Source: Dehalococcoidia bacterium (GTDB lineage: Bacteria; Chloroflexota; Dehalococcoidia; GIF9; AB-539-J10). Taken from it: a DNA stretch of 36,121 nt. A program made the position numbers and the translations under genes. The stretch spans positions 1 through 36,121 of the forward strand of contig PWRA01000126.1 in assembly GCA_003556385.1 (NCBI GenBank), in the 5' to 3' direction. Shown here in pieces: positions 10,253 through 35,271 of the stretch. Every line of letters starts with the position of its first letter. Position 1 is the stretch's first letter. The notes beneath the pieces were generated by a model. The model did no database searches. It saw only the letters and a list, made by a program, of their open reading frames with translations, and was not told the origin of the DNA.

Positions 10253-11563
10253 ATGAGGAGAAAAAGCATATCGATACTGGTTATGGTGGCGGCGGTAGCG
10301 CTCGCGATCGTGCTAATGGTGACACTGCTGCCCGAACGGGTGCAGCCGGCGGTAGCCGAGACCATTGGGTCGGACAAGCCGCGCATAACGGCACCGGACA
10401 TGGATCCGGCCGAGAAAGCGCTGCTGATCGAAGGAAACAGCGCCTTCGCCTTCGACCTGTATCAGCAGCTCCGGGAGGAAGAGGGCAACCTGTTCTACTC
10501 GCCCCATAGCATCTCGCTGGCGCTGGCCATGACCTATGCCGGAGCCAGAGACGAAACGGCAGCGCAGATGGCCGATACCCTCAACTTCCTGCTCGAGCAG
10601 GACGAACTGCACCCGGCTTTCAACTCGCTGGACATGGAACTGGCCGCGAGAGGGGAAGGTGACGAAGGATTCAGGCTCAACATCGTTAACGCCACATGGG
10701 GCCAGAAGGACTACGACTTCCTCGAATCGTTCCTCGATGTCCTGGCAGAGAACTATGGGGCCGGGCTCAGAATACTGGACTTCATGGAGGAGACGGAGGA
10801 GTCACGTCTGGCCATCAACCGGTGGGTCAGCGACCAGACGGAAGAGCGTATTCAAGACCTTATCCCGCAAGGTGCGATCGATGAACTGACCCGCCTCGTT
10901 CTCACCAACGCCATCTACTTCAATGCAGACTGGCAGCATCCGTTCGAGAAGCGGCGTACGTCGGACGGCCCGTTCTACCTGCTGGATGGCAACCAGGTTA
11001 GTGTGCCGATGATGACGCAGACGAGATCGCTCGGCTATGCCCGTGGGCAAGGATATCAAGCGGTGGAGCTATTATACGACGGCGGTGAATTATCAATGGT
11101 AATACTGCTGCCCGACTCCGGCGAATTCTCTACGTTCGAGGAACACATTGATGCACTGCGGGTAGCTGCTGTTATGGATGATCTACAGAGCCGGCGCGTG
11201 GCCCTGACCATGCCCAAATTCGAGTTCGAGTCGGACTTCGACCTCAGGCACACCCTTCAGACCATGGGCATGACCGACCCCTTCACGCCACCCTGCCCAT
11301 TCACCGGCGAAGGCGCTGATTTCACGGGCATGACGGACAACCGCGAGCTGTTTATCACAGACATCGTTCACAAGGCATTCGTGGCCGTGGACGAGGAGGG
11401 GACGGAGGCGGCGGCCGCCACCGGGGTGATCGTAGCTCCAACAGCGATGCCCCCACCGCCAGACGTGGAAGTCACCATAGACCGCCCGTTCATCTTCCTC
11501 ATCCGCGACATCGAGACCTGCGCCATACTCTTCGTCGGTCGTGTGCTCAACCCTGCGGGGTGA
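10253..11563 (+). CDS. Serpin (serine protease inhibitor family), exported
   Basis: NSAFAFDLYQQLREEEGNLFYSPHSISLALAMTYAGA; hinge EEGTEAAAATGVIV; DRPFIFLIRDIETCAILFVGRVLNP; N-terminal signal/TM. Confidence 0.96.
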   Translation: MRRKSISILVMVAAVALAIVLMVTLLPERVQPAVAETIGSDKPRITAPDMDPAEKALLIEGNSAFAFDLYQQLREEEGNLFYSPHSISLALAMTYAGARDETAAQMADTLNFLLEQDELHPAFNSLDMELAARGEGDEGFRLNIVNATWGQKDYDFLESFLDVLAENYGAGLRILDFMEETEESRLAINRWVSDQTEERIQDLIPQGAIDELTRLVLTNAIYFNADWQHPFEKRRTSDGPFYLLDGNQVSVPMMTQTRSLGYARGQGYQAVELLYDGGELSMVILLPDSGEFSTFEEHIDALRVAAVMDDLQSRRVALTMPKFEFESDFDLRHTLQTMGMTDPFTPPCPFTGEGADFTGMTDNRELFITDIVHKAFVAVDEEGTEAAAATGVIVAPTAMPPPPDVEVTIDRPFIFLIRDIETCAILFVGRVLNPAG

Positions 11564-16617: not shown

Positions 16618-17475
16618 CTATCGGGGCCCGGCTTTTCTGACCATAGACTGCAGTTTATCGTGTTCCCCCTCGAGCATCCGGTAGCAGTGCTTCTCCTCGG
16701 GGAACTTCCCGCCCCGCACCTCTTCACCGAACTCACGGCAGGCCTTCTCAATAATTGCACCCAGTTCAGCATATTTCTTGACGAACTTGGGAGTAAACGC
16801 CTCGAAATAGCCCAGCATATCGCCGACTATCAGTAACTGCCCATCCATTTCCATGCCGGCGCCAATACCCAGCACCGGGATGCGAAGCATATTTGTGATT
16901 ATCCGGCCCACCTCGGGAGGTACGGCCTCGACCAGCAGGGCAAACCCACCCCCCTTTTCGATGGCCAGGGCGTCTTCGATCAACTCCATGGCCGCGTCGG
17001 CGGTGCGCCCCTGAGCCTTGAAGCCACCGAGCTGACCGGAGCTCTGCGGAGTAAGGCCGATGTGTCCCATCACCGGCATGCCGCCCTCCACGATTCCTTC
17101 GATCTGCTTGATAACCCGCCGGCCACCCTCCAACTTGATGGCATCGACGCCGGCCTCTTTGAAGAACCGGCCGGCGTTCTCGATGGCGTCTTCTCTGGAG
17201 ACCTGGTAGGAGAGGAACGGCATATCACCGATGACGAAGGTATCGGGTGCGCCTCTCCTGACCGCCTGCGAATGCTGGATCATCTGGTCCATGGTCATCG
17301 GCATCGTACCGGGCAGGCCGTGCACCACCATGGCGGCGCTGTCACCAACCAGGACCATGTCGATGCCTGCCTTTTCGCAAAAACTGGCTATGGGAAAATC
17401 GTAGGCCGTGAGGAAGGTGATCTTGTCACCTTTCTTCTTCATCTCATTGAAGTCGAGTACGGTTTTCTTCGCCAT
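16618..17475 (-). CDS. 3-methyl-2-oxobutanoate hydroxymethyltransferase (PanB) family paralog
   Basis: [79 protein letters not shown]. Second PanB of the window. Confidence 0.88.
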   Translation of the reverse strand: MAKKTVLDFNEMKKKGDKITFLTAYDFPIASFCEKAGIDMVLVGDSAAMVVHGLPGTMPMTMDQMIQHSQAVRRGAPDTFVIGDMPFLSYQVSREDAIENAGRFFKEAGVDAIKLEGGRRVIKQIEGIVEGGMPVMGHIGLTPQSSGQLGGFKAQGRTADAAMELIEDALAIEKGGGFALLVEAVPPEVGRIITNMLRIPVLGIGAGMEMDGQLLIVGDMLGYFEAFTPKFVKKYAELGAIIEKACREFGEEVRGGKFPEEKHCYRMLEGEHDKLQSMVRKAGPR

Positions 17476-17495
17476 CTGATTCTCAACCTCCTTAC

Positions 17496-18431
17496 TTACT
17501 TCGGCAGCGGCACCATCAGGTCTTCGGCTGCCTGCTCAGATACCTTAAGCTCGGGATGGACCTCGCCGATTAGCTCGATTATGTTCTTGACCGACCTGAT
17601 CTTATCTCTGGCCAGTTCCGCCAGCCCATCTTCAGACGTACCCCACGGCATGTACATCGCCAGGCCCGGCCCCGGCTCCATCTTGAAGTAGCATGGCGAG
17701 GCCACCCGGGCTATCTCAGGCGTCTCGTAAATGCGGTTATAGCCGCCCATAGAGGCCCATAGCTGGATGTGAATGTCCAGGGGCAGACTCACCACCGTGC
17801 GCATAGAGGCAAGCTCGGGGAGGGTCAGGTCGGCCACCGGATTACAACTACCGGCACCAAGCGATTCCACCAGCTTCACCCCGGCAGCATTGGCGTGGCC
17901 GGCAAACACAGAGACCTTGAAGATCACATCCAGGGGCAGATCCCCGTTCTGCTTCATGCTGTTAAGCAGAGAAAGCACCCCTTCGTCCCAGACCAGGAAA
18001 CCCCGAAAACCGAGCTCGATGCACCTGTCCACCTCCATCAGGTAATGCCGCACCATGTCCATTCCCCGGAGCCTTAAGCCCGAGATGGCCCCCTCCGGTG
18101 TGGCGATCTGTCTACCAACATACCAGGTGGGCCTTGGCCCGGGCGTCATGATCACCTCTACATGGTTGTCATGGGCGATCTTCGCGAAGTCCCTCAACTG
18201 CTGTCTGGTCAGCATCGAAGCCCCACGCACCACCGAAATGGAGCGGTGAAACGGCACGCCCTGCTTCCTGGCCTCGTCGATGGTGGCTTCCAGCACCCTG
18301 GGCGTCTCTACCCCCGAGATCTCCACCCGGTAGTGAGCGCCGTCGGGGAACGTCTTCGTAGAGGCGGGCAGGTCATAGCCATCGGTGCTGGGAAAGCCGG
18401 CCCTTTCCATGGCCTGTGCGATCTTGTCCAT
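17496..18431 (-). CDS. Peptidase U32-like / TIM-barrel protein, co-directional with the PanB paralog
   Basis: VETPRVLEATIDEARKQGVPFHRSISVVRGASML...IMTPGPRPTWYVGRQIATPEG; 20-bp gap to PanB paralog; family call tentative. Confidence 0.55.
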   Translation of the reverse strand: MDKIAQAMERAGFPSTDGYDLPASTKTFPDGAHYRVEISGVETPRVLEATIDEARKQGVPFHRSISVVRGASMLTRQQLRDFAKIAHDNHVEVIMTPGPRPTWYVGRQIATPEGAISGLRLRGMDMVRHYLMEVDRCIELGFRGFLVWDEGVLSLLNSMKQNGDLPLDVIFKVSVFAGHANAAGVKLVESLGAGSCNPVADLTLPELASMRTVVSLPLDIHIQLWASMGGYNRIYETPEIARVASPCYFKMEPGPGLAMYMPWGTSEDGLAELARDKIRSVKNIIELIGEVHPELKVSEQAAEDLMVPLPK

Positions 18432-18541
18432 AGTTCTACCTCCCTGAATTTGAAGCGCCGAACGACGTCCGGCACAGCTTTGGCTTATTCCCAGCCTATA
18501 CTATCTCACGCCCCCAGCACTGTCAAGGGTTGTTGGGCTGT

Positions 18542-32204: not shown

Positions 32205-33091
32205 AGACTGGATTCATTGGCGCTGGAACCACAGGCACTGCTCTAGCAGTAAGGCTGTCTCAGAAGAAATGGCCCGTGGTAGCAGTGTCGAGTCGCACCC
32301 CGGCCTCCGCACAGAGACTGGCCGCGATGGTACCGGGTTGTAGTGCCTGTCACACGTCTCAGGAAGTAGTCGATGCCGCTGAACTGGTCTTCATAACCAC
32401 CCCGGACGATGCCATCGCCCGGGTCTGCAGTGAAGTTCAGTGGCATGCCGGCCAGAGCGTGGTGCACTGCAGCGGCGCCCATTCTGTAGATATTCTGGAA
32501 TCAGCAGAGCAATACGGAGCGGGCGTCGGTTCGTTCCACCCTCTGCAGACCTTTGCCCACGTTGACCAGGCCATGGAGAACTTACCGGGCTCGACCTTCG
32601 CGCTGGAGGCCCAACAGCCGTTGCTGGCGACCCTGGAGCAGCTGGCTGTTCTCCTGAATGGCAGTTGGGTAGAGCTCAAGCCGGGGGATAAAGTGCTGTA
32701 CCACACAGCGGCCGTTTTTGCCTGCAACTATCTGGTCACGCTGGTCAAGCTCGCTCTGGACTTGTGGCAGGATTTCGGTGTGTCGTCAAAGGAAGCAACC
32801 AGGGCGCTGCTACCTTTGATCAGGGGAACGATAAACAATATCAGCACTGTCGGCCTGCCCAACTGTCTTACGGGTCCCGTCGCCCGCGGCGACCTGGGCA
32901 CAATCGAGAGGCACCTGAGCGCACTGGAGGCCAGTAACCCTTCGCTGCTCGCTGTCTATAAGGAACTGGCTCTTCAGACCATTCCCACCGCGCTGGCCAA
33001 AGGCAGGCTTGACGAACAGCAAGCAGAGGAGATGAAGATACTGCTGACCACACAAGGCGAGTCACAATGCGGAGAAGGAGACACGAGATGA
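32198..33091 (+). CDS. Rossmann-like / DUF2520 domain protein (ketopantoate reductase-like fold); GTG start overlapping upstream stop
   Basis: [86 protein letters not shown]. Confidence 0.85.
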
Positions 33092-33471
33092 GAACAATGC
33101 TCAAGAGCAAAATCCACCGGGCCTGCGTCACTGAGGTCGACCTGGACTACGAGGGGAGTATCAGCATCGACAGGGCCCTCATGGACGCGGCCGACATCCT
33201 ACCCTATGAAAAGGTAGAGGTACTGGACATCAACAACGGAGCCAGGTTCAGCACCTATGCCATCACGGGAGAGGCGAACTCGGGCACCATCGGCGTCAAC
33301 GGCGCTGCCGCCAGGCTGGTGGCAAAGGAAGACCTGGTTATTATCCTCACCTATCGCAGCGTCCCCGATGATGAGGCGACCAGCGTTACGCCGCTCATAA
33401 TCTGTGTCGACGGTCAGAACAGAATCATAGAGCAACCGTCCGCAGCCCACCCATCCGGATGCGACAGATGA
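33088..33471 (+). CDS. panD: Aspartate 1-decarboxylase
   Basis: [61 protein letters not shown] autoprocessing site (YEGSISID); ATGA overlap with DUF2520 gene. Confidence 0.96.
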
Positions 33472-33596
33472 GACCGAAGCCTGGAGTGCGGGAACCGAGA
33501 ATACAGACTCGCCGTCCCTGAGTTCTGCAAAACACTGTCCGTGTGCCCGGCGAACCCGGTGTCAGGAATACAGATTTAAGCTGAAGGAGGCAGACG

Positions 33597-34433
33597 ATGA
33601 GAGTAACGATCACCGAGATAAAAGATATGAAGCAGAGGAACGAGAAGATCCCCATGCTCACCGCCTACGACTATGTGACGGCCAGGATGGTTGACGAATC
33701 CGGCGTGCCGTTGATATTGGTGGGCGACAGCCTGGGCATGGTGATGCTGGGTTACGAGTCGACCATCCCGGTGACTATGGACGAAATGCTCCACCACACC
33801 ACGGCCGTGGTGAGGGGGGCCAGGAAGGCTCTGGTTGTCGGCGACATGCCATTCATGACCTACCATATCAGTGTCCCGGACGCGCTCTCGAATGCCACGC
33901 GCTTCATTCAAGAAGGGGGCGCGCAGGCCGTGAAGCTCGAAGGCGGAGAGGCCGTCGCGGAACAGGTGCGACGCCTTGTCGCCTGCGGCATTCCGGTCAT
34001 GGGCCACATCGGGCTGACGCCACAATCGATACATCAGCTGGGCGGCTTCAAGGCACAGGGCAGGGTGGTGGGGGACGCCAGAAGATTGCTCAACGATGCC
34101 CGCATCCTGGAGGAGGCCGGCGCGTTTGCCATAGTCCTTGAATGCACTCCGGCGCCTCTGTCCGAACTCATCACCGGGCGGCTGACTATCCCCACCATCG
34201 GAATCGGGGCCGGTCCCGGCTGCGACGGTCAGGTCCAGGTGATCAGCGATGTTCTCGGGCTCTACACCGACTTCGTACCCAAGCATGCCAGGCAATATGC
34301 CAGGCTAGCCGGAGAAATCAGAGACGCCGTCGCCTGCTATATCTCCGACGTCCGGTCCATTAGCTTCCCCACCACAGAACACAGCTACACCATGGATGAG
34401 GGCCTTATCGAACAGCTAGAGGCGGAAGCCTAG
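33597..34433 (+). CDS. panB: 3-methyl-2-oxobutanoate hydroxymethyltransferase (canonical copy)
   Basis: [86 protein letters not shown]; adjacent panC. Confidence 0.96.
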
Positions 34434-34437
34434 CAGG

Positions 34438-35271
34438 ATGCAGGTAGTAAGAACAATCGCCGAGATGAGGACACTGAGGCAGCAACTCGACGGCGCGATC
34501 GGCTTCGTCCCCACCATGGGCTACCTGCACCGCGGTCACCTGGCTCTGGTGGAGCGGGCCAGGAGCGAAGACCAGTTCGTCATCGTAAGCATTTATGTCA
34601 ACCCGCTTCAGTTCGCTGCCGGCGAGGACCTCACAGCGTATCCGCGCGATCCGAACCGTGACCGGGAGCTATTGCGGCAAGAGAATGCGGACATCGTCTT
34701 TATTCCATCGGACTCTGAGATGTACCCGACTGGATTCAGCACCTGGGTAGATGTCGAGCACATAACCGAACGCCTCGAGGGGGCGTCACGCCCCGGGCAC
34801 TTCCGGGGCGTAGCCACCGTCGTGGCCAAGCTCTTCAACATCGTCCGACCATGCAGGGCCTATTTCGGACAGAAAGATGCGCAACAGGTGCTGATCATCA
34901 AGCGTATGGTGGCGGACCTCAACATGGGGATCGAAATCGCCGTTGTGCCTACCGTGAGAGAGAGCGACGGCCTTGCTCTGAGCAGCCGCAATCTCTACCT
35001 GAGCCCTGAAGAACGGCGGGCAGCCGCTGTGTTGTTCAGGGCCCTCACTCTGGCCCGGGAGCTACGCGCGGACGGGAAACGCGATGCCGATACCATCCGC
35101 AATCAGATGAAGGCGCTCATCGACAAGGAACCTCTGGCCCGCGTTGACTATGTCAGCGTTGCCGACGCCCGGACCCTGGATGAACTGCGCACAATCGACC
35201 GCACGACGCTGGCTTCCCTGGCCGTCTGGATAGGCAAGACAAGGCTGATCGACAACATGTCCCTGGAATAA
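34438..35271 (+). CDS. panC: Pantoate--beta-alanine ligase
   Basis: IGFVPTMGYLHRGHLALVERAR; VSIYVNPLQFAAGEDLTAYPRD; YFGQKDAQQVLIIKRMV. Confidence 0.97.
   Translation: MQVVRTIAEMRTLRQQLDGAIGFVPTMGYLHRGHLALVERARSEDQFVIVSIYVNPLQFAAGEDLTAYPRDPNRDRELLRQENADIVFIPSDSEMYPTGFSTWVDVEHITERLEGASRPGHFRGVATVVAKLFNIVRPCRAYFGQKDAQQVLIIKRMVADLNMGIEIAVVPTVRESDGLALSSRNLYLSPEERRAAAVLFRALTLARELRADGKRDADTIRNQMKALIDKEPLARVDYVSVADARTLDELRTIDRTTLASLAVWIGKTRLIDNMSLE

Follow-up and report, generated by a model that had tools for sequence, protein, structure and literature searches.

Ketopantoate hydroxymethyltransferase (PanB; PF02548, TIGR00222, EC 2.1.2.11) is known for its place in pantothenate (vitamin B5) synthesis, and two other protein families bear on the locus described here. 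Aldolases of the DapA superfamily generally use pyruvate as the nucleophile, and the formaldehyde-activating enzyme (Fae; PF08714) captures formaldehyde on tetrahydromethanopterin. 4-Hydroxy-2-oxobutanoate (HOB), for its part, can be formed from homoserine by deamination or from a four-carbon sugar acid by dehydration. A search of the available literature returned nothing on point for a fusion of DapA with Fae or for a PanB paralogue with a second function.

The window analyzed here is a stretch of 36,121 nucleotides from a Dehalococcoidia bacterium (contig PWRA01000126.1), and the named relatives nearest to the locus are Dehalococcoidia metagenome-assembled genomes (MAGs). The window contains a panD-panB-panC cluster (33067-35271, plus strand), made up of panD (aspartate 1-decarboxylase; 33067-33471; PF02261, TIGR00223), the canonical, operonic panB that serves as the comparison copy (33597-34433; PF02548, 384 bits) and panC (pantoate-beta-alanine ligase; 34438-35271; PF02569, TIGR00018). 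The preliminary description had placed a second PanB-family gene on the minus strand, away from panC and panD and 20 bp downstream of a gene for a 311-aa protein, and the coordinates confirm this arrangement. The upstream gene, an open reading frame termed T here, spans 17496-18431 (minus strand). It is followed after exactly 20 bp by PanB2 (16618-17475, minus strand; 285 aa), and the window genome carries exactly these two PanB genes. A good ribosome-binding site, read from the sequence, stands in front of both members of the pair: a Shine-Dalgarno-like AGGGAGGT precedes T (18438-18445, minus strand), and another, AAGGAGGT, lies right after the T stop codon and before PanB2 (17486-17493, minus strand). 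Elsewhere in the window, a putative serpin-like protease inhibitor gene was noticed by eye at 10253-11563.

PanB2 aligns with PF02548 over its full length (353.6 bits against a curated cut-off of 28.7) and scores 311 bits against the panB equivalog model TIGR00222, whose cut-off is 207.55. Catalytic and metal-binding residues equivalent to D45, D84, K112, E114, H136 and E181 of the E. coli enzyme are all present, as had been proposed for the aspartates and glutamates, and are invariant in the window protein and in 38 of 38 T-linked PanB rows. In an unrooted tree of 87 rows, a single branch with 99/97 support has all 38 T-linked PanBs on one side, from hosts in the Chloroflexota, Bacillota, Thermodesulfobacteriota, Campylobacterota, Actinomycetota, Armatimonadota and Lithacetigenota. 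Apart from them lie the panC/panD-linked PanBs, including the operonic panB of the window and none of which groups with PanB2, as well as the solved PanBs of E. coli, Neisseria and M. tuberculosis. When 15 further sequences were included, again without a root, a 98/95 branch still kept the ordinary PanBs, panC-linked copies included, on a common side. Nine of the added sequences have no T beside them and fall among or beside the T-linked PanBs, so the clade is not exclusively T-linked; they comprise seven from Chloroflexota, a second copy from Desulfosarcina widdelii and one on a very long branch that was disregarded. PanB2 is a member of an ancient, separate PanB branch that adjoins T in many phyla.

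The positions that separate this clade are 179, 212 and 214 in E. coli numbering. Among the T-linked PanBs, valine is replaced by leucine at 179 (38/38), valine or isoleucine by leucine at 212 (33/38) and valine by isoleucine at 214 (37/38). E. coli PanB variants at I202, I212 and V214 have an altered nucleophile range (PMC7610986), and positions 212 and 214 therefore line the 2-oxo-acid pocket. The bulkier residues of the T-linked proteins suggest that the pocket may accommodate a smaller acid. The motifs GDSAAM and HGLPGTMPMT, which had been cited as distinguishing the second copy, are limited to close relatives of the window protein and were rejected as clade markers: distant T-linked PanBs read GDSVGM or GDSLGM and YGYAGTVPVTM, and M. 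tuberculosis PanB reads GDSAAN.

The same pocket shifts occur at 179, 212 and 214 in PanBs linked to a second partner, T2 (7/7, 6/7 and 7/7, respectively), and in the second D. widdelii copy. T2 is a protein of about 440 aa that matched no family, and it adjoins all seven of the added Chloroflexota copies (loci L180-L184, L186 and L198). A profile alignment of T2 with T covers 142 columns at 65% probability and brings the motifs FK-[IV]-S-VF-x-G and K-x-E-x-G into register, which suggests, but does not prove, a possible distant kinship between the two families. The second D. widdelii PanB (L187:1950-4754) lies, as judged by eye, next to RidA-like and D-threonine-aldolase/D-serine-dehydratase-like genes.

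T itself belongs to a family with homologues in many bacterial and archaeal phyla. Profile scans of T found no Pfam or NCBIfam family above threshold, and an NCBIfam scan of 66 T proteins gave nothing useful. A structure model built from an alignment of the 66 homologues (pLDDT 92.6, pTM 0.90) has eight alternating strands and helices, and the fold is confidently modeled as a (beta/alpha)8 TIM barrel. This part of the earlier assignment as a TIM-barrel/U32-like protein stands; membership of U32 is rejected. PF01136 is the best Pfam match of T, at E = 0.08 and 12.6 bits against a curated cut-off of 22.4, and the best value among the 66 homologues (E = 0.016) is likewise below the cut-off. The T profile aligned with local U32-matching proteins at 60% over 47 columns, and the U32 protein Mk0906 (5d88) was one of many generic barrels retrieved by structure. 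That search, run against PDB and viral libraries, yielded only generic TIM barrels at TM of about 0.5 and pointed to no function, so the reaction of T cannot be read from its fold; sequence searches of T and T2 against solved structures found nothing significant. In the 66-homologue alignment, more than 40 positions hold a conserved charged or polar residue in at least 90% of the rows, and H62, E92, D149, E150, K172, S174, N197, D219, R233, K250 and E252 are invariant, as expected of an enzyme.

The association of T with PanB is conserved across phyla. Within its class, T occurs in 7 of 245 genomes, and each time a PanB gene lies directly downstream. Among 80 T loci drawn from the GTDB collection, mostly from MAGs and annotated by simple ORF calls with some neighbors named by sight, 37 carry PanB no more than 1.2 kb away; a rough calculation that assumes independent loci puts the expectation at about 0.3. 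T precedes PanB in Dehalococcoidia and Lithacetigenota, PanB precedes T in most loci of Bacillota, Thermodesulfobacteriota and Actinomycetota, and one locus is divergent. Retention of the neighbor while gene order changes argues for a functional tie between the two proteins. The suggestion that the pair forms a unit for a hydroxymethyl or aldol-type reaction of its own is supported in part: PanB2 does not branch with operonic PanB and the pairing is conserved, as the suggestion required; the motifs and the U32 kinship once offered for it fell away.

T-linked PanB was never found beside panC or panD in the loci examined. In twelve genomes it is the only PanB, and ten of these (G250-G259) have no PanC; since the ten come from several phyla, gaps in MAGs are an unlikely reason. 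Among the ten, eight (G252-G259) also have no homoserine dehydrogenase, and seven of the eight have no thrC match over the cut-off; they apparently make no threonine and are small, auxotrophic genomes that keep the T-PanB pair. The two remaining genomes, G246 and G247, have PanC together with T-linked PanB as their sole PanB, and the window genome has PanC as well. PanB2 probably swaps one-carbon (C1) units with a small keto acid instead of serving vitamin B5 synthesis.

In some hosts, a different enzyme takes the place beside T. DapA-Fae (PF00701 plus PF08714) is a protein of 470-520 aa that joins a DapA-type domain to a formaldehyde-activating-enzyme domain, the latter scoring over its cut-off. 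Of the 43 T loci that lack PanB, 7 have it next to T (L040:9072-12376, L046:8946-11837, L049:6782-9686, L065, L066, L075 and L077); of the 37 with PanB, none does. Its hosts are Bathyarchaeota, Baldrarchaeota, Asgard and Thermoproteota archaea and one member of the Chloroflexota, and closely related Chloroflexota T proteins have PanB as their neighbor in L039 and L050 and DapA-Fae in L040. All 30 DapA rows, which include some genes fetched twice, have T45, Y133 and K161, with T or S at position 44. R138 is found in 0 of the 30 and is replaced by C, V, L or T. K161 is the Schiff-base lysine, and true dihydrodipicolinate synthase (DHDPS) uses R138 to bind the carboxylate of aspartate semialdehyde; because Arg138 is not kept, the fused DapA was not filed as DHDPS. 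Single-copy fusions retain the active-site histidine of the Fae VAHID motif. The fusion often occurs as two tandem copies, and of these one has the histidine and the other does not. The simplest reading of the domain composition is that DapA-Fae would reversibly join pyruvate and formaldehyde to give HOB. With PanB as its equivalent using methylene-tetrahydrofolate (methylene-THF), the enzymes that neighbor T, though unrelated, would both transfer a C1 unit to or from a small 2-oxo acid.

The retention of PanB2 without PanC, the pocket shift and the DapA-Fae replacement all support a hydroxymethyl chemistry other than pantothenate synthesis. Taking these together with the pairing, the separate clade and the intact catalytic residues, we infer the identity of the substrate, the direction of the reaction and the role of T as follows, and we tentatively favor the view that T and PanB2 form a conserved C1-exchange module outside pantothenate synthesis, working on a 2-oxo acid smaller than ketoisovalerate. 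PanB2 would exchange a hydroxymethyl group between 5,10-methylene-THF and this acid, the most likely pair being pyruvate and HOB. In most hosts it would more likely run as a retro-hydroxymethyl transfer, in which a 4-hydroxy-2-oxo acid, supplied by amino acid deamination or sugar acid dehydration, would be split into a 2-oxo acid and methylene-THF for the folate/Wood-Ljungdahl C1 pool. In users of tetrahydromethanopterin, the DapA-type pyruvate aldolase fused to Fae would fill the same role. T, the constant part, would be a barrel enzyme that handles the shared intermediate in the step immediately preceding or following the C1 exchange. The aminotransferases and amino-acid dehydrogenases among the neighbors of T agree with this proposal. 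Against this proposal count the conservative, hydrophobic nature of the pocket swaps, the 36 of 80 T loci that have neither PanB nor DapA-Fae nearby, and the finding that PanB and T from one locus do not always have the same relatives. The wider extension is a widespread natural pathway common to bacteria and archaea, in which T would work with a PanB paralogue on THF or with DapA-Fae on tetrahydromethanopterin to move C1 units to and from pyruvate via HOB. Such a pathway, which would connect C1 and C3 compounds alongside serine hydroxymethyltransferase and glycine cleavage, is conceivable, if doubtful.

The main rival to this catabolic direction is the synthetic one, in which PanB2 or DapA-Fae would add a C1 unit to pyruvate to make HOB, which an aminotransferase would then convert to homoserine for threonine and methionine. 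The neighborhoods of T offer it some footing. Class I aminotransferases stand beside T; 8 of 80 loci have homoserine dehydrogenase no more than 4.5 kb from T; and L071 and L064 combine T with homoserine dehydrogenase, DapA and a GHMP kinase (homoserine-kinase-like in L071), a context that fits synthesis as well as breakdown. In the window genome (G000), moreover, no match over cut-off turned up for homoserine dehydrogenase or threonine synthase. The same is seen in its congeners G112 and G134, and MAG gaps or real auxotrophy may account for all three. Most T carriers of the Dehalococcoidia class, however, have an ordinary homoserine dehydrogenase and threonine synthase, which weakens the idea that the pair generally exists to supply homoserine, and the genomes that apparently make no threonine keep the pair nonetheless. 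T also has Glu/Leu-type amino-acid dehydrogenases, aldehyde oxidoreductases and 2-oxo-acid:ferredoxin oxidoreductase-like genes as neighbors. Other contexts look catabolic: an IclR-type regulator precedes PanB2-T in several Thermodesulfobacteriota loci, in L083 and L085 PanB2-T is accompanied by a TRAP-type binding protein and a gene resembling ectoine hydrolase, and the operon in L086 includes an amidohydrolase, an IlvD dehydratase and a short-chain dehydrogenase/reductase (SDR). With the routes that lead to HOB from homoserine or sugar acids, which may supply the intermediate at T loci, these contexts favor catabolism, in which folate would receive the C1 units, and make synthesis of homoserine fairly unlikely. 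The ectoine-hydrolase (DoeA) paralogue in the IclR-PanB2-T operon of D. widdelii (L083:10189-11364) scores 504.7 bits, below the 613-bit equivalog cut-off.

It is also unlikely that PanB2 is a redundant ketopantoate hydroxymethyltransferase, an isozyme or acquired copy serving pantothenate synthesis with T merely traveling along. The complete set of catalytic residues and the passing of the panB equivalog cut-off would suit such a role, as would the presence of PanC with T-linked PanB only in G246 and G247. The separate clade, the altered pocket, the absence of panC and panD next to it in the examined loci, the persistence in ten PanC-less genomes and the substitution of DapA-Fae in archaea all speak against it. 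Very unlikely, finally, is an aldolase for longer 2-keto-3-deoxy acids, with an acceptor other than formaldehyde or THF and with T as an upstream isomerase or dehydratase of sugar-acid breakdown: E. coli PanB can indeed show metal-dependent aldolase activity toward several aldehydes (PMC7610986) and the amidohydrolase-IlvD-SDR operon would fit, but sugar-acid genes appear in that one locus only, and the Fae domain of the archaeal replacement points to formaldehyde as the C1 unit.

Since the genes of the clade exceed the panB equivalog cut-off, they would be annotated as panB, and this can wrongly credit PanC-less genomes with pantothenate synthesis. If the proposed exchange of C1 units is correct, anaerobic bacteria and archaea naturally move such units between folate or methanopterin and pyruvate-sized acids, a step for which synthetic formaldehyde pathways have turned to promiscuous aldolases. 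It would also give a testable function to T, an undescribed, highly conserved enzyme family of many phyla.

Compared with known systems, PanB2 shares with ketopantoate hydroxymethyltransferase a full-length family match and all metal-binding and catalytic residues, and differs in its separate clade, its shifted pocket, its partner gene and its occurrence without PanC. T has in common with peptidase family U32 (PF01136) the TIM barrel and a sub-threshold sequence resemblance; missing the family's cut-off, it stands as a distinct conserved family. The archaeal replacement keeps T44, T45, Y133 and K161 of the DapA-type class I pyruvate aldolases (PF00701) and departs from them in its fusion to Fae and the loss of the DHDPS arginine. 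With Fae it shares the domain and, in single-copy fusions, the VAHID histidine; here the domain is fused to a pyruvate aldolase beside T, not to hexulose-phosphate synthase. The pyruvate-formaldehyde aldolases of synthetic homoserine/HOB routes, such as E. coli YfaU, perform the same C-C step between a 2-oxo acid and formaldehyde (PMC10127515, PMC7610986). There it is a side activity or an engineered step, whereas for PanB2 and DapA-Fae it is proposed to be the natural role.
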